Positions 18,862-55,811 of a stretch of DNA of 64,000 nucleotides are shown piece by piece. Below the pieces are notes generated by a model. It did no database searches. It was not told the DNA's origin and was given only the letters and a program-made list of their open reading frames with translations. Numbering within the stretch: position 1 is the first letter of the stretch; each line of letters starts with the position of its first letter. Position numbers and translations under genes: made by a program. Origin of the DNA: Rhizophlyctis rosea (Eukaryota > Chytridiomycota > Chytridiomycetes > Rhizophlyctidales > Rhizophlyctidaceae); contig JADGJC010000211.1 in the NCBI GenBank assembly GCA_027596075.1, positions 1 through 64,000 of the forward strand, in the 5' to 3' direction.

Positions 18862-21800
18862 ATGACGGGTCAGGAATTGACTCCTGAAGACTTGCGCCGT
18901 TTGCGCGCTCAGCGATATGCTGCCGCTGTAAAACCACCCTCAAACGATACGGCCGCATCGGTCCAGGCAGACGCAAAACCCTTGCCCGTTGTTCAACCTC
19001 TGCCAAAGGTCGGCGATGAAGGGCACCCCAGTAAGAAGAAGCGACTGGAGAACGACAACTCGAATACTCCCACCAACTCAAACCCCATAGTTACCATCCC
19101 ACAGTCCACTCGGCTGGCAAACCCCACTGTCGGTGCCCCGAAGTCCCTTACCCCAAAGGCTGCGGTGCCCGTCGTCAGCAAACCGATTCCGACTCCACAA
19201 AAGGTCTCCAAACCCCAAACACCAGATCTGAAGAGGTTGATCTCCTTCCTCTTCGAATATGACCGGCCTGTAGACGCACAAAACTGGTCCAACATGGAGC
19301 CGAGACCCCTTGTGGAAGCTGTGTGGAAGATGAAGAGTGTCAGGATACCTGATTGGGAGCTGCTGCAGTACCTTTTCGGATGCTTCAACCGACTGGACAC
19401 CAATGCGGTTAAGAATGAGAAGAAGCTCTTCGAAGTGGCCGGTGAGCAGCTCACCAATGCATTGATAGATCGGTTATGGGAGGAACGGGTAAGAGGTGTG
19501 ACCCAGCGCTCGTATCATGCTGAAAGATTCTGACAAGCTGACTGCTCCAGGCGCGAGACATTTGGAGTGATGTAGAGGACGATTTGTCGTACTTCTTGAC
19601 GCTCCTGGAAGAGCGCCGCGTCAGCAGCACCGTTACACAACATCTGACAAAAGCATTGGACAAAGCGTTCGAGTCGCCATCAACCTCCACCAAAGTGGTC
19701 GCTCTGGCTAAGCGATTGGTGAAGAACTCGTTTTCTCGTGTGAAGGATGCAAACCTGTCGGATCGGTACAAACTGGAGGCGCGCCTTGCAACAGTACAGA
19801 CAGTCATGAAGCTCTCCAAAATGATGGGCGCCACGCTTGCGGATATTTTGGAGGAAGAGACCAACAAGCAAGACATCATCAAGACATCATGTATCGCACA
19901 CGTTCTCGGTGTGGGGCTTTTGGAGTATCCCGCGTCGCCGGCACAACGTGTATGTATTTGAAAGCCTCATCATTTACATGAACAACACTTCATATCTGCT
20001 CAATCAGGAAACTTTTACTTCGATCGCCAACTACCCACAATGCACTGTCCATGAAATCAAAGCCGTATATGAAAACGTCCGCCGTTCATTGAGCTTCGCA
20101 GTCGATGCCCTCCATCAGGCTTTCCTTCAAATTCTACGAGGAGGAAAGAAGGATGCCCTATGTGCGTGGATAGACGCCGCAGTAGAAGCATGCGCGAAAG
20201 TCGGAGTGAAGTCGCGTCGAAGGGATCCCGTTGGGCCGAACTTCGCCATGAACCTCACGGCGTTGCTGGTCAAGATGGCGAAGAAGTTACAGGAATCCAA
20301 ACTTGCGATACAGCATGAGTATGTGTACTCTGCGAAAGGACTGCACTTAAGACAGTCCAGACCCATTGTCAAAGGTAAGGCAACCGACCACAACAACCTC
20401 ACTGCATCCGCTTACGTCTTTAGCAGTCCCCGAAACGTTGCCTGCATCCGATCAATCAATCAAGTATACATTCGCAACCGAAATCTTCTACCTCACGCAG
20501 CGTGCCATCCATCTATGCCTGATCCCCCGCATCACCGACTTCCGCGAGATTAGTCAATCACTTCCCTACCAATACCCCGATCCCAAACAGTTGCAGACGG
20601 AGGCCACGCTCCTTACGGATCTGTTCCGGACTCAAGTGTTGGACCCGGAAATCCTTGATGATCTCTTCAGCTTCTTTGGCTTGGAGCTCAAGTATCTTGA
20701 ACCTGTCTTTGCCGCAGGAGCATCGCAGAGCAATCCGCTTGCTTATTGGCCGGAGTACACTATTATGGACCAGGGCTTGGTGTGGCAGACGGTCGCTAGG
20801 GTTGACAAACTTGCTGCGGAGAAGCTTTACATGTCGTGGAATGAGTGGGTGAATTTCTCGGTGCTGTGTCTGCAGGTTTGTGTCTCTGAAGTTTGGTGAT
20901 GAGCGCAGGTCGGACATTGTCTGACGGTGCATCTGCGCGACAGCATTTGGAATTGTTCGCAAGGCCCATTGTCCCAGCTAAATTGGTGATGTCTTTGGAC
21001 GCTACTCTGGAATCGGCAGAGAGAGGAATCGGAGGTCGTTCAGGAGGAGTTGGAGACTTGTCCATTTCTGGTCAGTTCTTCAACAATCGCAAAGTCCAAA
21101 CTGAGCTGCCGTTTGCAATGTTGACCGTCTTCATCAGCATCGACATGATGGAAGGTAAGCAATTTCAATGAATTTTGCAAACGACTCGCAAGTTGCTGCT
21201 GATGACCGAACTCCAACACCCAGGCGCCGACATCGACAAGGAAGACGACGCAATCAACGAAGCCTCCGTGCGTCAAAGCGTAGCCCTCCTAATCAAACAC
21301 CTCTTCTCCCTCCCCGACGTCCGCCACAACATCTTCCCCGCCATGTCCGCCTCCCCACTTTACGCCGACTTCACAACAAAACTCATGAAGCACCTCCTCC
21401 ACTTCTTCGAAGACCTCCTCCTGCGCGTCGGCAACATCCGACAAATCGAAGTGAACCAGGACGCCGCGGGGAAGAAAGAGGTGGACGATCCGAAACTGAA
21501 GCATTTCATGGCTTCGGAAACGCGGTCGGCTAGTGGGGTGGTGCAGTTGGTTGATGTTATGTTGGATGTGCATGAGATTTTGTGTGCTAATGAGGCTACA
21601 CGGAAGGGGTTTGTGGACGGGGAGCTTGTGAGGAGACATGCGAGTATTTGGATTAAGTTTGTGAATGGGTTGGCGGGACCTAAGAAGGATGCGTTGAAGA
21701 TTAAAGCGGCGAAGCAAATGAGGTTGGAGCCGAAGAATATGGTTGCGAGTGTGGGGAGGATTTTGGCGAGGGTTGGGGGTTGTGAGGGGGTTGTGGAGGC

Positions 21801-23256
21801 TTTGGTTGATGAGCCGGTGGGTGTTTCAACTTTTAGATTTTTTTGGCTTTTGTGTGTGAATGTTTGAGACTGATGTTGATTCGTAGGATTACGACCCAGC
21901 CATCATGGACAAGTTCACGAACATTCTTGAGAGGGTGCAAGTTGACGGCGGAACCATCGATGGGGTCCGTCACCTCACTCGAGCAGGTATGTTGCTCATC
22001 ATTGAACTATCAATGAGCGTCCATCCCAGTAACCACTGCCACTCAAAATCAATAAATCAGTCAACGCGGCGCGCTCCTCCCTGACACAAGTACAGCCCTC
22101 CACAGCATACACAATCTCTCCAACCCTCTCCTCCCTTCTCGAATGGGACGACGCCATCCTCGCCGAAATCCACAAAGCCACCATCAGCGAACTTGGCCAA
22201 GTAAACGAATGCGACATGACGTCCCCAAACGGAACATACCTCCACGCCTGCCACTCCCTCATCGAAGCTGAAGTCGACGCGCGCGCTCCCAAAAACAAAG
22301 CTCTTCTCAAAGAACTCACCAAGCTGAAAAAGACGGACATGTTACCCTGTCATCCGTATTCAACAGTGTGTTTTTGGCACCAGGAAGGGAGGGTGGATGT
22401 TGTGAGGGTTGCGGTTACGGGACCGAAGGATACGCCGTATGAGATGGGGGTGTTTGTGTTTGATTGTTATGCTCCGGGGAGTTATCCGATGGTCCCGCCG
22501 GTGGTGAAGATTGTTACGACGGGAAATGGGACGGTGAGGTTTAATCCGAATTTGTATAATGATGGTGAGTTGTGGGGTTTGTAGTCGTGTGTCTGTGGGG
22601 GAAGGTTGAGTGGTTTTTTTGGGATCGGAGATTTTCTGGTATGAATTTGGTCGGACTGACTGACGTGTCATCTGAACATGCTATCAGGCAAAGTCTGTCT
22701 CTCCCTCCTCGGCACATGGCACGGTAAAGACGAATCGGAGAAGTGGAATCCGCAGACGAGTTCGTTGTATCAGGTACATTTCCCCATCCCCCTTTCCCCC
22801 CCTCATCCCTTTCCCTCACCTCTACTTTCCCCTACCTCACACTTACCCTCCCCCACAGGTCTTCGTGTCAATCCAAGCCCTGATCCTCATCGAACAACCG
22901 ATCGTCAACGAGCCGGGGTACGAAACTTTCGCGGGCACGAACGAGGGAAAGAGAAAGAGTAAACTCTACAATGAAGAAATCCGGTTGAATACATTGAGAC
23001 ATGCGGTTGTTGGGCAGTTGAGGAGTCCGCCTGCTGGTATGAATCATTCATGAAGAGCTTGGTTGATGGAGAAAGGATGATGACTAATCTTTCCTTAGGT
23101 TGTGAAGCGTTTATACGGCAACATTTCGAGTGTGTTGCTGGGCCGGTTATGAAGACTGCGTTGAGGTGGAGGGATGAGAGTGAGCCGGGGAATCGGGGAC
23201 GGTTTGAGGCTGTTTTGAGGGAGGTGGAGGGGGAGTTGAGCAAGTTGGTTGAATAG
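18862..23256 (+). CDS. Ufd2-type E4 core fused to a BIRC6-like E2 (UBC) domain
   Basis: Spliced model: 18862..19488, 19551..19949, 20008..20374, 20424..20875, 20944..21154, 21224..21816, 21887..21986, 22061..22564, 22688..22773, 22859..23036, 23099..23256; 1,224 aa, every junction in phase. Residues 1-120 are disordered (Pro/Lys-rich). About 125-910 is the Ufd2 core: family landmarks include FAMNLTALLVKMAKKL, EIFYLTQRAIHLCLIPRI, TQVLDPEILDDLFSFFGL, YWPEYTIMDQG and RPIVPAKLVMSLDATL. Ufd2/UBE4 proteins should end in a U-box; none is present. From about residue 985 there is a UBC fold with RFNPNLYNDG, the active-site context KVCLSLLGTWHG (Cys1088) and KWNPQTSSLYQVFVSIQALIL, closest in my memory to BIRC6/UBE2O-class E2s. 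The exon 7-8 splice (21986/22061) joins the halves with no stop. Inference: a one-polypeptide E2-E4 enzyme. Confidence 0.85.
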
Positions 23257-23540: not shown

Positions 23541-26432
23541 TCACGTCCCACCCACTCGTCCCCTCCGTCCACTCCTTCCCTCCGACGGTCCAAAACTCGG
23601 CATGTACCCTACTCCTCCTCCTCCTCCTCCTCCTCCTCCTCCTCCTCCTCCTCCTTCCGTCTTGGTCGTAAGATTCGTCACGCTCTTCCCCGTCTCACTG
23701 CCTGGTGTTTTCGGCTTGCCAGAGAGAAAATCAAGTTTATGTCCACCCTGTTGCTGTTGTTGAGTGTTTTGTGGAAATGCGGGGGCGCTTAGGAATGAGA
23801 GTTTTTGCGGTTGGGAGGGGATTGTGGAGATGTTTGTTGTTGGTGTTGGGGAGGGGTACGTGGGTGTTCGTGGGTGGGGTGTTGTTGTTGTTGTTGGTAT
23901 GGAGGTATTGGACGGAGATAGGTTTTGAGAGGGTGTTCTTGGTGGTTGGTTGGTGGTTGGTGGGTTTGTGGTGATTGAGGGTTCTTGATAGGGTTTCGGC
24001 GAAGCAGGCTTTGGAACCGAGGGTTGGGATGTGGTAGTTGTTGTTGATGGAGGTGTAGATGTTTTCGATGATGTAAAACTGAAAAGATTCGGTTTATGGA
24101 CTGATGCAGGTTTTGAGGGTTGTGGTGACTGAGATGTTGGATTTGGTGATGTTAAACGGGTGGTGGGTGTTTTCGAGTGTAATGCTCGTTCTTCTGGTTG
24201 ATGTGGACGTGGAGAAGGTGATATGGGATGTGATGACACCCCACTAGGTTTTGGTGACCGTCCACTATCATGTCTTTCCCCATCCCTTATGCCTTTCGCT
24301 CTTCCAATCTGTATGTTATCTTCATCTACATGTATCTGATCCTGGTTAATATGCGCAGTTTCGGTATCGCTAGGCTCGCCGTGATCATCCAATCCTTCAT
24401 CCTCATCCACGACATCCCGCACAGGGTCCAACTTCTTACTTCCCGCACCAGCATGTCCAACATCTTTACGGTCAACATCCCCACCCCGACTTTCAACAGA
24501 ACTATCACGTTCCGCATGTTTCTCACCTCTGGAATCACGGCCCCTCACTGCATAAGAATCTGTTGACCTCTGACTGGCCTCCGAGATATTGGACTGTGTC
24601 CGTCGATGGGCGGTATTTCTGTAACTATAAGAAGGCGCTCTTTTCTGATATTTGTCTTTCCTGTAGTGGCTCCCAACAGAGACAGCATCTGTATCTTGAT
24701 CCTCAGCCCCACTCTCCGTCTCGTCTTCGCTTGGAACGGGTTGGAGTTTCCTCCTATTGCCAGCTTGTGCATAGATAGATAGAGCTGAGATGGTGCGATC
24801 TCGGTCCTATGCGTTTGAGGATAAATCCCATCGTCAAATTTTTGTCAGCATGCATAGGCAAAACAAAAATCAAGACGCAAACCTGCAACTTCTGCCTCAG
24901 TTCGGCATGATTAGCTTTCAACTCTTGCAACTCCTCCATCAATTTAGTACTCTTAGCCTTTGTTTCGCGCAGTTCCATGCTCTTGGCCCCTTGCGTATGT
25001 TTCAACGTCCGTTCCAAATGCTGCAGTTCCAAATTCACATATCAGCTCACTCACACCTTCACACCCTTCTCACCACCCGTTTCTCAAGGCGCACATTACC
25101 GCAATTATCCCATCCTTCTCCTCCAAAACCCTTCTCAACCGTTCCACAGTCAATGTCAACTTATCGCTCTTCTCAATGCCTTTATTCCGTAACGTGGCGC
25201 CCATTGTGTTGACAGCACCCTGCAAGCGGACGTTCTCGTCTAGTTGGGCTTGAGTGCTGCGTTCGAGGGTTGCGATGCGTTGGAGGTGTTTTTCTCGTTC
25301 GATCTTTTTGGTGGTAAATCGTGGGCACAGCTTCAAACGTTGGTAACTTCCCATTTGAGCATCATACCTTCAGCCCGCGAACCTCCTCCGTAAGTGTCCG
25401 CACCAGTTTCGGCAGGTCCCCTTGATCTTTGTCCATTTTTTGGATGGCTTTTTCTTGTCTTTGTGCAATCTGTGTGGGTGGAACAACGTATGAGCCTTGC
25501 GACCTTTGCATATTCCAGCACATAGCGTGTTTGAGAAAGATCCTTACAATCTTCAGTGTCTTCCGTTCCTCCATCAGCTCTTGCAACTTAGCCTTTTGCT
25601 CATCAATGATACGTATTAGGCGGTCCATCTCCTCAAAATGTGCATTTGAGGGTGCTACAGGGCGGATACGTGCTGGGCCTGGTTGGGGAGTTGCGATTTT
25701 GTTGATGTTTGATTGAGAGCGTCTTCCAGCTGTGTTGTTGTCACTCATATGACTACATGATAGCAAGAGCTTATTGATGAATGGCTCACTCACCGGACGA
25801 TTTTCGACGCAAGTTGGTCATGGTAGCATTACGCGATTTCATACCAGGTTTGGAGGGAGGACCTGCTTCTGCAACTACGCAACTCAGCAAATTAAGATGC
25901 GGTCCCAAAACACCGTGGCCATGAGCAATGTACCTGAGATGCGCTTCGATGTGGTGCTATTGTCCATTCGTGCATTTGATTTTCCACGATCGATTGGATT
26001 CTTGGACTTGGTAGGGTCAACATTAGCTTTCACATATTCTTTCCTCTCGCCAGCCAAGAAGGCCAGATCAGTCTGTGAGCCTCCCATGCCGTATATTTGC
26101 AGCTTTGGTGTGTTCGGCTGGGCCGACTGGTGCGGTGGTGGCGATAGAGAGGATGGTGCGTCTGATGGAGGGGCATGGTACTGATGGGTTGGCTTATACA
26201 TATTGGACTGATTAGATGGAGCTGGGGAAGGAGATGGGTGTAACCAGTGTGGAGCGGGAGCGGGTGTTGTGGAAGTGGTGTGTGCTTGGCCTGTGGCTGT
26301 CCCACCGAAGAAGGAGGCCATGTCGTCATCGTCGTCGGGGTGAACTTTGGACGTAGCTGATTTCAACGAATACTTGTCAGCAGCAGCCGTGTCATGATCT
26401 TCGAAGTCAAAGTCATAGTCGTAGGATGTCAT
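23541..26432 (-). CDS. lebercilin (LCA5)-like coiled-coil ciliary protein
   Basis: Start ATG at 26432 (MTSYDYDFDFEDHD...), stop at 23541. An acidic, Ser/Pro-rich N terminus leads into Asp/Ala/Pro-rich linkers, then coiled coil over about 25660-24850: MDRLIRIIDEQKAKLQELM, QRQEKAIQKMDKDQGDLPKL, VRTLTEEVRGLK, LERSTQAQLDENVRLQGAVN, LRRVLEEKDGIIA and a final ELRETKAKSTKLMEELQEL. The order of an LKELQKRQEKAL-like heptad, then LPxLxxxxEEVRxL, then a long heptad run is that of the lebercilin domain. The C terminus is Ser/Thr/Pro/Gln-rich low complexity with a 14-Gly run encoded by a (TCC)n microsatellite at about 23613-23654. Known: lebercilin locates to the ciliary transition zone and axoneme. One clear splice: a donor after CGAAAATCGTCCG (about 25798) to an acceptor CACAG at about 25725. 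The family call is by motif memory, so moderate. Confidence 0.65.
23613..23654. repeat. (TCC)n trinucleotide microsatellite coding poly-Gly
   Basis: About 14 uninterrupted TCC/CTC units; on the minus strand they encode a glycine run in the lebercilin-like protein. Likely length-variable. Confidence 0.9.
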
Positions 26433-34170: not shown

Positions 34171-35304
34171 CTAACAACACAACTCCTCGTCAACCTTCTT
34201 AGTCACCACAACACCATCCCTCTCCGCCAAAATCCTCCCAACCTCCCCAAACACCGCGGACCCAATCGCCAACCCAACCACAATAGCAATACACAACCCA
34301 ACATTATACGTCATGACGACTAACATCATTATATACGCCAACGAAGCTGATACTAGACGAGATACACCGCGAATAACGGCAGATGCGATGCGGTAGGAGG
34401 TTTTGATGTCTGTTCGTAGGAGTGGGGTGATGGAGGTTTGCGAGGCTGATGGGGGGTCGAGGGAGGAGATGGAGGATGAGGAGGATGTTGTCGCTGGTTG
34501 TGTTTGTGTTGCTGATGTTGGAAGTGTCCGAGGAGGCATGTAATACACCGCGTCCCTCCGTCGTTCAACCGTCAAATGCGCAACCTGGAACGCCTCATAC
34601 ACCATCCCCAACAAAATCGAACACATAATCGCCGCAACGTACTGTCCCGACGTATTCGGCACCCACTCCTTAAACAGTATATAATCCCTAATCCCCGTGT
34701 GGAAGTACATCCGCATTTCCACGGGGTCTGAGGCTGTTGAGGCGGTGCAGTACGGTAGGGACGGTGTTGCGTCGCACATTGATTGCCAGTATGAGCATTG
34801 CCGCATGTTGGGCATGGCTTTACATAATTGGGCGTAGGTGGAGAGAAGGTCGCATTGGGCGTATGTTGCGTTTGGGCGGATGGAGCAGGTGGAGCATCCG
34901 TCCATGGACATTTCGGTGCAGATTGAGGAGATTGAGGCGGTTGTTTGGGCGGAGGTTGGGAGGGAGGGGAGGGGGGAGAGGGATGGGCCAGTGCATCTCG
35001 TTGTTGAATTCGCGCAGGTCGATGTGTAAGCCGCGCAATCGCTCATGCGGGGCATGTCTAAGGAGCAGATGTTGGAGAGGAGGGAGAAGGGTGTGCAGTA
35101 TTCGGAGGGGATTGTGGAGGAGGGTGAGGAGCAGGAGGTGCGGATGGTGCAGCCGGGCATGCCGGGCATTTGTTGGCAGAGGTTTGTGAGGGAGGTTGTG
35201 CTGTTTGTGTCTGGGAGGGGGGCGGTTTGGGCGTGGAGGGTTGGGAGGAGAGAGAGGGATGCGAGGAGGAGGGCGGTGCCCTTGGGAAGGGTGCGAGGCA
35301 GCAT
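34171..35304 (-). CDS. CTR-family copper transporter with four-module Cys/Met ectodomain
   Basis: Plasma-membrane (or vacuolar) Cu(I) importer. Single exon, 377 aa. Residues 1-25 are a signal peptide (LLLASLSLLPTLHA). Residues 43-186 contain 16 cysteines in four groups of four: 43/52/58/70, 80/90/97/104, 129/137/140/151 and 161/170/177/186; the first gap of each group holds a Met pair (MPGM, MPRM, MSM, MPNM). The CTR domain starts near residue 197 (MRMYFHTG...). TM1 about 222-240, then a Ser/Thr-rich loop, TM2 with the MxxxM filter (MLVVM), TM3 with GxxxG (GLAIG). Ends in CC, like the Cys-rich tails of other CTRs. Known CTRs trimerise and capture copper by Met motifs; the Cys/Met modules as copper scavengers are my inference. 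It lacks introns, unlike most neighbours. Confidence 0.88.
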   Translation of the reverse strand: MLPRTLPKGTALLLASLSLLPTLHAQTAPLPDTNSTTSLTNLCQQMPGMPGCTIRTSCSSPSSTIPSEYCTPFSLLSNICSLDMPRMSDCAAYTSTCANSTTRCTGPSLSPLPSLPTSAQTTASISSICTEMSMDGCSTCSIRPNATYAQCDLLSTYAQLCKAMPNMRQCSYWQSMCDATPSLPYCTASTASDPVEMRMYFHTGIRDYILFKEWVPNTSGQYVAAIMCSILLGMVYEAFQVAHLTVERRRDAVYYMPPRTLPTSATQTQPATTSSSSSISSLDPPSASQTSITPLLRTDIKTSYRIASAVIRGVSRLVSASLAYIMMLVVMTYNVGLCIAIVVGLAIGSAVFGEVGRILAERDGVVVTKKVDEELCC

Positions 35305-36780
35305 GACTGGGGCGATGTCGACGAGGAGATGGTGAGAATATGAGGTTGAGAGAGAACGGCTCTCACTTCTGTTGGTAACTTAGTACTGTACGAGCTTGGC
35401 GAACAGAGAACGGTGGTGCAGCTACTGTAAATAAACCTTGACCACTCTTGCTGACACAAACTGCGGAACTGTCAAGGGCAAAAATCGCGCAACCGGCACT
35501 TTATATGAGCGTCTTGGTGGCACTGGGAATGGGATCCTGACCAAATTGCGGCGCATTGATCCGACCAATGACAGAACCTCTTCCCTCCTCGTTGTTGATT
35601 GGTTCGAAACATGAAGACGCCAAACCTTGTTGTATGTGTCATGATGACTCACATACGCCAGGGTTCCAAGCACATCAAACCATTTCACTTTGGTACATGT
35701 ACACCACTTCCACACAGCAAAAAGGCAGAAAATGCCCGACCGGCACGACCTACAATTTGCGACACTTTCAGCAGCCATAATCTTCCTAGAATTTACTCAA
35801 TACCGCTTCATGAAAGAAACGGACAATCAATTACGTGACCTCAAACAAAGAGTGTGGGCAGTGACGCTTGCCACCGAGCCCACTGAGTCCACTGACCCTC
35901 CCGAGGTAACAATAACAGCGACCCAGATGCGATATCCGGATGTGCCAAAAAAATGTCTCTGAAAACGTAGGTACTAAAGCCTCTTGCGCAGTACACGCAG
36001 GTTGGAAGCAAGCGACGACGCCTCTTCGATGAAGTAGAGGACTGACACCATAACCGGGGATTGTGCGGGCTGAGGCGACATTTTCACTCTTAGCGATGTG
36101 GGCTGCTCTGATCAATTGGATTGAAAGTGGTGGTTACCTTCGCGGGGGTCCCGTGGCGGCTACTTTGGGAAGGAAAACTGTACGGCTGGGAAGTAAAGCG
36201 CCGCAGAAGTAGTGGTCACGTCCAAGTGTTTACAGAAATTTGGTTCTAATGGTGATAATGGTTGTGACAATGCGTTCTCTGATGGAACTGTCAGTTGCTT
36301 TTTGTTTTTTGGTCGCTTGAGCTCTGACATACAAACGACCTCTTTCCAACGTGGTCTTTCTGCACTCTGTTTTGGGACTTATGCGCCATCTTGGATGGTA
36401 CTGGCACATATGAATATGACTGGTTTGATCACCGCGTTGGACGATTGTCAGTGATTGTCCTCATGACAACATCGATCCTATGCATTTGAATCAAGTCATC
36501 CTGCGTTCGAGCCGATCAGAAGTGACTTCCCGCCATTCCAAACCGCTCATGTCAAAATCTTGACATGGCACGATGGAAGTGGCGCAGTTTGCTTGTCAAA
36601 TCTGGAGTGTCTTGATGAATAGGGGTGTCCCGCCGATCAAATTAATTAATCACCAAATGCATGAAATGGGGGCCTTCCCACGCGCGCGGACATCACAATC
36701 AGATCCCCATTCATAGTCAATCAATTGACATCATGCATGTCCATCCCGTCCATCTCGTCCAAACATTAGGCAGCGCGATT
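35305..36780. other. long intergenic region
   Basis: About 1.5 kb upstream of the CTR gene (-) and of the hairpin array (+). Apart from the small frame at 35732-35962 I see nothing coding. It carries the promoters of both flanking units. Confidence 0.5.
35732..35962 (+). CDS. possible small ORF, 76 aa
   Basis: ATG at 35732, stop at 35960. The N terminus has a short hydrophobic stretch (FATLSAAIIFLEF) followed by a charged helix. Reading frames on the opposite strand are also open here, so coding status is doubtful. No family recognised. Confidence 0.2.
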   Translation: MPDRHDLQFATLSAAIIFLEFTQYRFMKETDNQLRDLKQRVWAVTLATEPTESTDPPEVTITATQMRYPDVPKKCL

Positions 36781-44478: not shown

Positions 44479-45510
44479 TCAATTACGCAGATATTTGCCC
44501 TTCAAGAACCGACTGTAACGCCTATGGACGGACGCAGAAGACCTATCAAGCAACTTCCCAATATCCACCCAACTTGTGCCCATTTCCCGTCCATGAGTAA
44601 TCTTTGCATCTTCCTGCACGGTGAACCGGCCATGCTTCAATGTAGGATTCAAACATTGGATCCATCTTTGTCTGACTTGACTATCGTATCTTCCCAAACG
44701 GCGACCCAACGCAGCCCAATTCACTGTTCTGCCTTCAATTTCTGCTGCCTTGACTTCCCCCACTATCTCAGCATCTTCCCCAGGATAGAAGGTACCACGC
44801 TTGATGTGGGGATGTAGTCTTTGCATCCAATGTTGGCGAACTGTCTGTTCTGGTCTCTTCAGCTTCCTGGCAAGCTCCGCCCATTTAGGTATTGCCCCAG
44901 CGACGACTGCCCTTCCTACATCAAGACGAATAACACGATCTTCTTCTACGCTCCACGGAGCAATCTTTGCATTAGACTGCAGAAGATTGATGGCGTGTTT
45001 TCGCACAACCTCAGGAATACGGTTCAATAGAGTAGCCAGTCCGGCCCAAGACAATTTTCTATCTGATGGCAAAGTAGTGACTTTGAGCAGAAAAGCGTCT
45101 TCTTCTGGCGTGAACGGATCCTTTCGAACACTTGGATTCAGCAAGAGAGCACGGTATTGCACCGAAGACACTTATCTGTTGACTTTTCGGGCCACCTTTG
45201 TGTACCGGGGCCGGCGTTGCTCACTTTTCGCCGCCTCAATTTCAGCTAGCAATAGGGCATCTTCAGGAGGTACCCATTTCCGCATGCACTTTGTGAAAGG
45301 AACTGGCGCTGTGATGTCAGTTGGGGGAACTACTTTGGTCCGACTACCTCGCCGCAGCGGGAGTTCTTTTGAAGGCGTGAGGGTTTGGACGGTGGTTGAC
45401 AGGTGCCCATGAAGGCGGTGGAAGTTTGCAGGAAGATGTAAACCGAATTTGTAGGAGGCACCAATATAAGCTGGCAAGCGAAAGTTGATGCTTATACAGG
45501 TGTGAGCCAT
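44479..45510 (-). pseudogene. multi-repeat Myb/SANT protein interrupted by an in-frame stop
   Basis: Minus-strand frame from ATG 45510 (MAHTCISINF) to stop 44479, about 343 codons, broken by TAA at 45174-45172. Both sides are in the same frame and belong together: the stop falls within the last helix of a Myb repeat (KVARKVNR-stop-VSSVQYRALLLNP). At least four Myb-like repeats with tryptophan landmarks are seen: around WVPPEDALLLAEI (45270), PFTPEEDAFLLK (45110), PWSVEEDRVIRL...WAELARKL...VRQHWMQRL (44960-44820), and FYPGEDAEIV...WAALGRRL...VRQRWIQCL, with part of a fifth. Known: multi-repeat Myb proteins of this kind include SNAPC4-like snRNA activators and fungal Bas1-like factors; which one is not clear. 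No GT-AG intron removes the stop. Either a pseudogene, a read error, or stop readthrough. Confidence 0.7.
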
Positions 45511-53846: not shown

Positions 53847-55811
53847 TCACCGCCTGCCCTTCTTCTTCCCCTTCTTCCCCCCACCAACCTCCTCCCCCCA
53901 CCTCTCCCCCACCTCCCCCGCACCAGCCAACGCATGCCCCGTCCGCCGAATATGATCAAAAAGCTTATTCCGCGTTCCAAACTCCTCTCGACAAACATTA
54001 CACTTCCACTGCGTCGTCGCCCCACATTCCTCCGCAGCAACCGAACTAGAAGAAGCCTTCGCAGCCTCCCTAGCAGCTTTGCGTTCCTTCGCTTTACCCT
54101 TTTTCTTCTTTCCCCCTTTCCCTGTCGTCGATGCGTTATCGTCGTCGGATGATACATTAGCTTCTTTTAGGGAGTTGATGATGGAATCGACTAGCGGGTC
54201 CTCCAGTGTGTATTGTGTGCCGTTTTGGGTGGTGGGTATTGCGGGGATGGAGTGGTCGTCTTCGTGGTGAGGATCGACGTCGCTTTCGGATTGGACTAGA
54301 CCGGAACGTTGGCGGCGTTGTTGTTGTTTTTTCTTTTTCCGGGTGGTGAAGGTGGGTGTTGAGGGTGTGGCGTCTGAGTCGGTGTCTAGTGCGGGTTGTA
54401 GTGCGTCGTCATCGTCTCCTATTGATGCGAAAGCGTCCACATCGTCCACATCATCCGCATTTACGTCATCCTCCTCCCCTTCATCTCCATCAACCTCCAC
54501 GCTTAGCTCCCCATCCTCCTCCTCCTCCTCCCCCTCCTCCCCATCCTCATCCCCCTCATCACTCCCCAAGTCACCCCCCTCCTCATCCGCCAAAAGCTCC
54601 TCCCTCAACAACTCCACCATCCTCAAATGCTTCTTCGACTTCCCATGATTCTCAAACTGCCGCTCAGACTTAAACCCCTTATTACACGCAACACAAAACA
54701 ACTCATCATACTCCTCCGCCACCAAATCCTCCACCTCATCATCATCCTCCCGGACTTTTGCCCACTCCGGCGCTTCGTACTCTTGAGCTTTCAGCGCTCG
54801 TTCCCGCTTTTCTTTCGCTACTCGTCTTTTCTCAGCGGCGATCTTCTCTTCTGTGGCTTTTCGTTGGGCTTCTTGGAAGTCTTTGTACCGCGGGTCACGT
54901 TTTCGGACGAATTCTGCTAGTTGGCGGACGGCTTCGACGAATTCTTTTTTGGCTTGGGTGCGTAGCTTTTTGTTTTCGGTTTCCATTAGGCGGCGGATAC
55001 GTCGGTCGGGTGCGTCGGAGAGGCGATATTTGTCATACCATCGGAAAGATTTGACAGATGTGAAGTAGAGGAATTTATTATAGAATTCGCGGAGTTGTGG
55101 GTCGTAGGGTGTGGAGGAGGAACCAAAGTCGGTGAAGGTGATGGAGTCAGATTGGTCGTGTGAGGCTTCGGTGTCGACTGTGAGGGCTTCTTCTTCTTCG
55201 TGTTCAAGGCGGGCGAAGAGTTCACGGTAGGTTTGGTAGAAGGATTTTGGGTCGGTGTCTGTGTAGCCTTTGTAGCAGGACGCGGTGAAGAAGCGCATGA
55301 GGGTGTCGGTTGTTGTTACGTCGACGTAGCCGGAGCCGCCGGAGCCGATGTCGGCTTCGTCGTCTCCGCGGAGGATAGCTTCGCGGTGGCTGTCATACCT
55401 GCGATCGAGAGAGAACATATATGTTGGCGGATGCTCCTTTCTCACATTGCCAGATCCCATCTCCCCCTCCTCCTTCTTCTTCCCTCCCTCCGCGAATGCA
55501 TGTGATTTACTCATGCACCACCTGCATACCATGCACGTTCCTGATCGTCACTCAGCACTTCATACGCTTGTTGAATATCAGCAAACAGACGGGTAGCTTC
55601 CTCCACGCGATCTCTGTTTTTGTCCGGGTGCAGTTCTAATGCTTTTCTTCTGTATGCCTGCGAGTACGGCGGGCGGGGTAAGTGACTGTCCTTGGTATAC
55701 AATGAGGCACACACAGCCAGCGTCCGCTGCTTTCATGATGTATACCTTCTTCAGCTCTTCAGGAGTTGCCTTTCTCTCCACGCCCAGGAGCTCATAATAA
55801 CACGTCCTCAT
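53847..55811 (-). CDS. JJJ1: JJJ1/DNAJC21 J-domain protein
   Basis: Hsp40 co-chaperone of cytosolic Hsp70, needed for late 60S subunit maturation (release of Arx1 in yeast). Exon 1 [22 protein letters not shown] (ATG 55811), then [16 protein letters not shown] with the HPD motif (about 55670-55600), spliced into [16 protein letters not shown] (about 55405). The long last exon carries Jjj1 landmarks: [22 protein letters not shown], a Lys/Glu helical stretch (about 54950-54790), the first C2H2 zinc finger ([23 protein letters not shown], about 54690) and, after a very acidic region (54400-54590), a second one ([23 protein letters not shown], about 54000). Ends KKGKKKGRR. Three exons in all; the open sequence upstream of GTATGACAGC in the last exon is intron. 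Confidence 0.95.

Follow-up and report, generated by a model that had tools for sequence, protein, structure and literature searches.

U-box E4s are the standard case of ubiquitin ligases obliged to recruit a separate ubiquitin-conjugating enzyme (E2). In the chytrid Rhizophlyctis rosea, a gene on the + strand at positions 18862-23256 of the 64,000-nucleotide stretch analyzed here (contig JADGJC010000211.1, positions 1 to 64,000; the window) encodes a protein in which the core of a Ufd2-type E4 is joined to an E2 (UBC) domain of the BIRC6 class that takes the place of the U-box. E4-UBC fusions are widespread in eukaryotes and not a chytrid oddity. We consider it probable, at roughly 0.6, that the R. 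rosea protein belongs to an old eukaryotic family with this organization and, associated with Cdc48, elongates chains by means of its own BIRC6-type E2; the architecture is well supported, and the activity is one that we infer.

Gene structure and domain order

The gene consists of 11 exons separated by GT-AG introns of 49-123 bases, and splicing leaves a single open frame. Intron 3 has two in-frame acceptors, one at 20423 giving a protein of 1,224 amino acids (with the predicted active-site cysteine at position 1088) and one at 20426 giving 1,223. The longer product, which is the one the original prediction had assembled from 11 in-phase exons, is identical in every letter to the deposited R. 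rosea protein HDV00_004255 (NCBI; P0001 below). The locus lies on contig 126 of the genome searched (44.1 Mb, 634 contigs). Exon 1 (18862-19488) encodes the N-terminal region. The Pfam-defined E4 core starts in the 3′ part of exon 2 (19551-19949), continues through exons 3 (20008-20374), 4 (20424-20875, alternative start 20427), 5 (20944-21154) and 6 (21224-21816), and ends in exon 7 (21887-21986). Intron 7 (21987-22060) separates the E4 half from the UBC half. Exon 8 (22061-22564) carries the linker, an N-terminal extension that is BIRC6-type by sequence comparison, and the first half of the UBC domain; the active-site region is in exon 9 (22688-22773), with the codon of the predicted active-site Cys1088 at 22696-22698, the C-terminal half of the UBC domain in exon 10 (22859-23036), and the C-terminus and stop codon in exon 11 (23099-23256). 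When intron 7 is retained the frame runs into a stop in exon 8, and fusion of the two halves therefore depends on this splice.

Pfam detects Ufd2P_core at residues 332-901 (149 bits, E 2e-43) and UQ_con at residues 1022-1137 (71 bits, E 1e-19) of the 1,223-residue form, together with a weak UEV match (E 0.004). In P0001 the two domains occupy residues 332-902 (19917-21943) and 1023-1138 (22378-22933), both spanning introns. An E4 core had been predicted at about residues 125-910; its identity stands, while its limits do not, as the Pfam match is narrower. The UBC domain follows the core with Cys1088 and the NPN motif both kept, consistent with the intact active site that had been proposed. Among the best 60 of 255 matches to solved structures, the UBC sequence scored highest against BIRC6 (190 bits), followed by UBE2O (126 bits) and UBE2Z (113 bits), in agreement with its earlier assignment to the BIRC6/UBE2O class, and the core matched yeast Ufd2 weakly (35 bits). 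The Pfam scan of the fusion protein found no U-box and, to E 1, no BIR domain. A U-box profile run over the genome as a search for a hidden exon gave six matches, all on other contigs, and none on the fusion contig at E 0.001. The predicted absence of a U-box between core and UBC is thus upheld.

Of 49 proteins with this order, 47 have 96-181 residues between the end of the core and the start of the UBC domain (106 in R. rosea; the count includes P0036, described below), and the longer junctions are those of P0023 (284 residues) and P0025 (371). The second half of the junction resembles the region upstream of the UBC domain in stand-alone BIRC6-class proteins. The linker was also considered as a relic of a U-box, and this was rejected: the second half of a linker profile matches stand-alone BIRC6-class proteins ahead of their UBC (P0034, E 5e-13; P0030, E 2e-12; most others weak). 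In the predicted structure of a haptophyte member, a part matching yeast Ufd2 is followed by one matching BIRC6. By first and last aligned residues, six BIRC6 rows of this comparison begin at model residue 675-677, and two of six yeast Ufd2 rows stop at model 637-639 (yeast 876-879). By these two shorter rows, about 40 residues separate the folds; the Pfam U-box profile has 73 positions. Domain matches, the same arrangement in 47 other proteins and the predicted fold of one relative therefore agree on the proposed order, E4 core followed by BIRC6-class UBC.

Distribution and descent of the fusions

A whole-protein search gave 289 matches among 7987 scored candidates, of which 120 were listed. 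Precomputed annotation marks both domains in 33 of these. Of 33 proteins scanned individually, that of R. rosea among them, all contained both domains and only one, P0036, contained a U-box. As a query with nothing but the R. rosea core recovered no other protein, the amphioxus core was used as query for core relatives, and the 30 matches listed comprise 24 proteins with both domains, three with the core only, two insect UBE4B proteins with core and U-box, and one with UBC only. Named sources of fusions are Branchiostoma (three entries), Haliotis, Nucella, Batillaria, Liolophura, Gigantopelta, Littorina, Patella, Babylonia, Lingula, Owenia, Nematostella, Dysidea, Chlamydomonas, Volvox, Pleodorina, Sanguina, Myrmecia, Elliptochloris, Nannochloris and Calcidiscus, which we take to represent amphioxus, molluscs, a brachiopod, an annelid, a sea anemone, a sponge, green algae and a haptophyte. 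The remaining fusion sequences are mostly metagenomic. Neither a vertebrate nor another fungal fusion was present among the matches listed (120 and 30), which is not proof of absence.

Profiles built from the family detected the core in 55 proteins, 51 on the fusion branch and four others (P0036, the two insect UBE4B proteins and a U-box Ufd2 of R. rosea). The UBC domain lies downstream of the core in 48 of the 51, always in that order; P0134, P0136 and P0137 have none in their models. Core-then-UBC without a U-box is thus the arrangement of 48 of the 55 core-bearing proteins, and a 49th, P0036, also retains the U-box. Of the 48 fusion UBCs, 47 preserve the signature NPNLYxxGKVC(L/I)S(L/I)L. 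The exception, P0122, deviates right at the cysteine and ends 10 residues past the UBC match; an exon seems to have been mispredicted there. NCBIfam, whose models are made for bacterial and archaeal annotation, returned nothing for four family members. P0036, a metagenomic protein, resembles the fusions in joining an E4 to UBC domains; it differs in keeping the U-box ahead of two tandem UBCs, and since both of these fall outside the fusion group it probably records a separate, independent fusion event. As side observations, snail Biomphalaria ufd-2 (BGLB026024, 938 amino acids) is reported with Ufd2P_core only and no U-box, which its authors attribute to annotation (PMC6548493), and a search of viral structures returned giant-virus U-box E4-like proteins and E2s matching this E2 as separate entries, fusions themselves not being the object of that search.

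Trees were built for each half. For the UBC tree, 38 stand-alone UBCs similar to others were removed from 138 rows, leaving 100, and P0122 was omitted as truncated. The 47 fusion rows lay on one side of a branch with support 99/87, recovered in 98% of 200 bootstrap trees; the stand-alone rows are a skewed sample, as they were taken from the same ranked search. The core tree contains 44 of the 55 rows, 11 similar or partial fusion-branch rows having been removed by hand, and separates 40 fusion-branch rows (three without a UBC in the model) from the four U-box-bearing rows with support 100/98; these four are its only non-fusion rows, with no identified UBE4A among them. Within the fusion branch, an animal group and a group with green algae as its only named members each received 100/99, and several rows, including the R. 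rosea U-box Ufd2, have an odd letter composition. Both halves of the R. rosea protein group with the other fusions. Because the trees of both halves set the fusions apart from other rows, the likeliest history is that the fusion arose once, long ago; the simplest reading would be a single event that predated the split of animals and algae or was spread by transfer. The gene structure and the family of fusions are, on the sequence evidence, solid.

The original prediction had suggested looking for a separate U-box Ufd2, and one, to which one of the six genomic U-box matches belongs, is present on contig 202: its rough model ends in a U-box and has IRARRLAK, which resembles a p97-binding motif, near the start. 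R. rosea therefore has both forms of E4. Two further loci carry BIRC6-class UBC exons: at C482:164000-172000 they follow a long open frame and do not group with the fused UBC, and another lies at C624:3999-4172. We rejected the possibility that a stand-alone E2 of the chytrid itself was fused recently, as the C482 UBC falls outside the fusion group; the C624 UBC was not in the tree.

Proposed activity and alternative explanations

We propose that an N-terminal motif docks the protein onto Cdc48/p97, that the E4 core holds a ubiquitinated client, and that Cys1088 of the built-in UBC, once charged by E1, would hand ubiquitin to the client or to ubiquitin already present on it. With transfer carried out by the built-in UBC, a separate E2 and a U-box would be unnecessary. 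This mechanism, including the self-sufficiency in charging and chain extension suggested in the original prediction, is deduced from well-known relatives. The candidate docking motif is LRRLRAQR (codons 11-18, 18892-18915), an exact match to the VCP/Cdc48-binding consensus (aliphatic)RxxRxxR given, along with p97 binding by an N-terminal motif of Ube4b, in PMC5559722. The consensus fell within the first 40 positions in 23 of 20000 shuffles of P0001 residues 1-333. A relaxed form follows a hydrophobic segment in amphioxus, Owenia and P0136, the last presumably a sponge protein by its label. Simple hydropathy places a hydrophobic segment starting within the first 200 residues in 16 of 46 proteins, all of them named animals or sequences grouping with animals in a tree; in eight, a signal-like segment starting in the first 10 residues precedes one resembling a membrane helix. 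By the same measure, the animal proteins of Lingula (P0123) and Littorina (P0126) have none. Many of the animal enzymes are probably membrane-fixed, most likely in the endoplasmic reticulum (ER). P0136 has EF-hands ahead of its hydrophobic segment, as does Nematostella, there with scores below the Pfam cut-off. Motifs resembling the ubiquitin-interacting motif (UIM) occur in 11 of 55 proteins (six named green algae, four sequences grouping with them, and P0024, inside its core region), and Pfam calls a UIM in 2 of 33.

Known systems share parts of this organization. Ufd2, UBE4A and UBE4B have the same core, and two insect UBE4B proteins carry the p97-binding consensus at the N-terminus; they differ in ending with a U-box, the arrangement given for UBE4A and UBE4B in a U-box survey (PMC3087547), where the R. 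rosea protein has a UBC. By sequence and by fold, the nearest UBC is that of BIRC6 (42% identity across this module in the folded haptophyte relative), but no BIR domain was found in the R. rosea protein, whose scaffold is an E4 core instead. In UBE2O, too, a UBC of broadly this class is joined to a large N-terminal part; that part is unlike, and the UBE2O UBC is farther (25-28% identity in the relative's fold alignments), BIRC6 scoring higher by sequence and, for the haptophyte relative, by fold.

A real fusion might instead work as BIRC6 and UBE2O do, initiating ubiquitination on its own clients with the E4 core as a mere client-binding scaffold. The E2 module and its N-terminal extension are of that class, and UBE2O is termed E3-independent (PMC12835413), yet the UBE4B-like p97 consensus and the UIM-like motifs suggest clients that are already ubiquitinated, and we regard this alternative as credible but unlikely. 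That the UBC has no activity or a regulatory role, for example as a decoy binding ubiquitin or E1, finds some support in the weak UEV match. UEVs are inactive E2-like domains without the cysteine, whereas the cysteine and NPN are kept in nearly every fusion UBC, making such a role very unlikely. Least credible is that gene prediction merged a U-box-less E4 with a neighboring E2. An intron does lie near the junction and an in-frame ATG at 22216 (residue 969) could start a separate product, but the order recurs in the 47 other proteins, one of which (P0024) is labelled a Trinity transcript open reading frame, and some of the BIRC6-type extension is encoded ahead of that ATG, within the same exon.

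Several observations weigh against our proposal of a Cdc48-associated elongase of old descent. The p97 motif was seen first and counted afterwards, and in its relaxed form it occurs N-terminally in only 8 of 51 fusion-branch proteins, and in 3 of the 4 others. The structure comparison concerns a model of a haptophyte relative rather than the R. rosea protein, and in it four of six yeast Ufd2 rows reach past the core to model 702-894 (yeast 911-925), so that the point where the core gives way to the E2 is not sharply defined. The core of the R. rosea protein has diverged strongly, with 26-28% identity to three other fusions and 20% to both its own U-box Ufd2 and an insect UBE4B; as sole query it returned only itself among 7994 scored candidates. 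P0001 also forms a long branch meeting another long branch, for which a warning was issued, leaving its place within the family unsure. Acquisition of a real fusion by horizontal transfer, which is compatible with the proposed mechanism, would fit the lack of another fungal fusion among the matches listed, but the long P0001 branch points to no particular donor; we consider it improbable.

Searches of titles and opening lines of abstracts in the open-licence literature, which excludes preprints and most subscription papers, found no description of an E4-UBC fusion. The claim of an undescribed architecture holds to that extent, but the fusions are widespread and already in protein databases, unnamed, with both Pfam domains marked. 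The Chlamydomonas member, Cre12.g510300, is listed as an E2 (‘Ubc21’, PF00179) in a table of putative ER-associated degradation genes, with the E4 half unmentioned in the part of the paper available (PMC7838096); its expression there is 0.11, 0.14 and 2.14 fragments per kilobase per million at lead levels 0, 3 and 80 (log2 change 3.62, 0 vs. 80). The recurrence of the chytrid arrangement in some animals and algae suggests that these fusions form an old family of self-contained ubiquitin-chain builders, apparently undescribed. More tentatively, at somewhat less than even odds, they would be an E2/E4 hybrid beside BIRC6 and UBE2O, with a single origin preceding the divergence of animals, fungi and green algae and with losses in vertebrates, insects, land plants and yeasts (none among the matches listed), and would build chains with its own E2 on Cdc48-bound clients, in many animals from the ER membrane. 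A natural fusion, kept in many lineages, in which the E2 itself stands in for the recruiting domain would show that E2 recruitment is replaceable, would offer a single-chain system for studying E4 chain building, and would give animals rarely studied for protein quality control a probable membrane-bound, Cdc48-linked ligase.

Neighboring genes in the window

Four other loci in the window, all on the − strand, were noted. A 421-amino-acid open frame at 23544-24806 converges on the fusion gene; it has no Pfam match and contains a poly-Gly run from a CTC repeat. Farther away lie a member of the Ctr copper transporter family (34174-35379), a gene with Myb-like DNA-binding domains (44482-45171) and a gene with Zuotin-like and zinc-finger matches (53850-55547).
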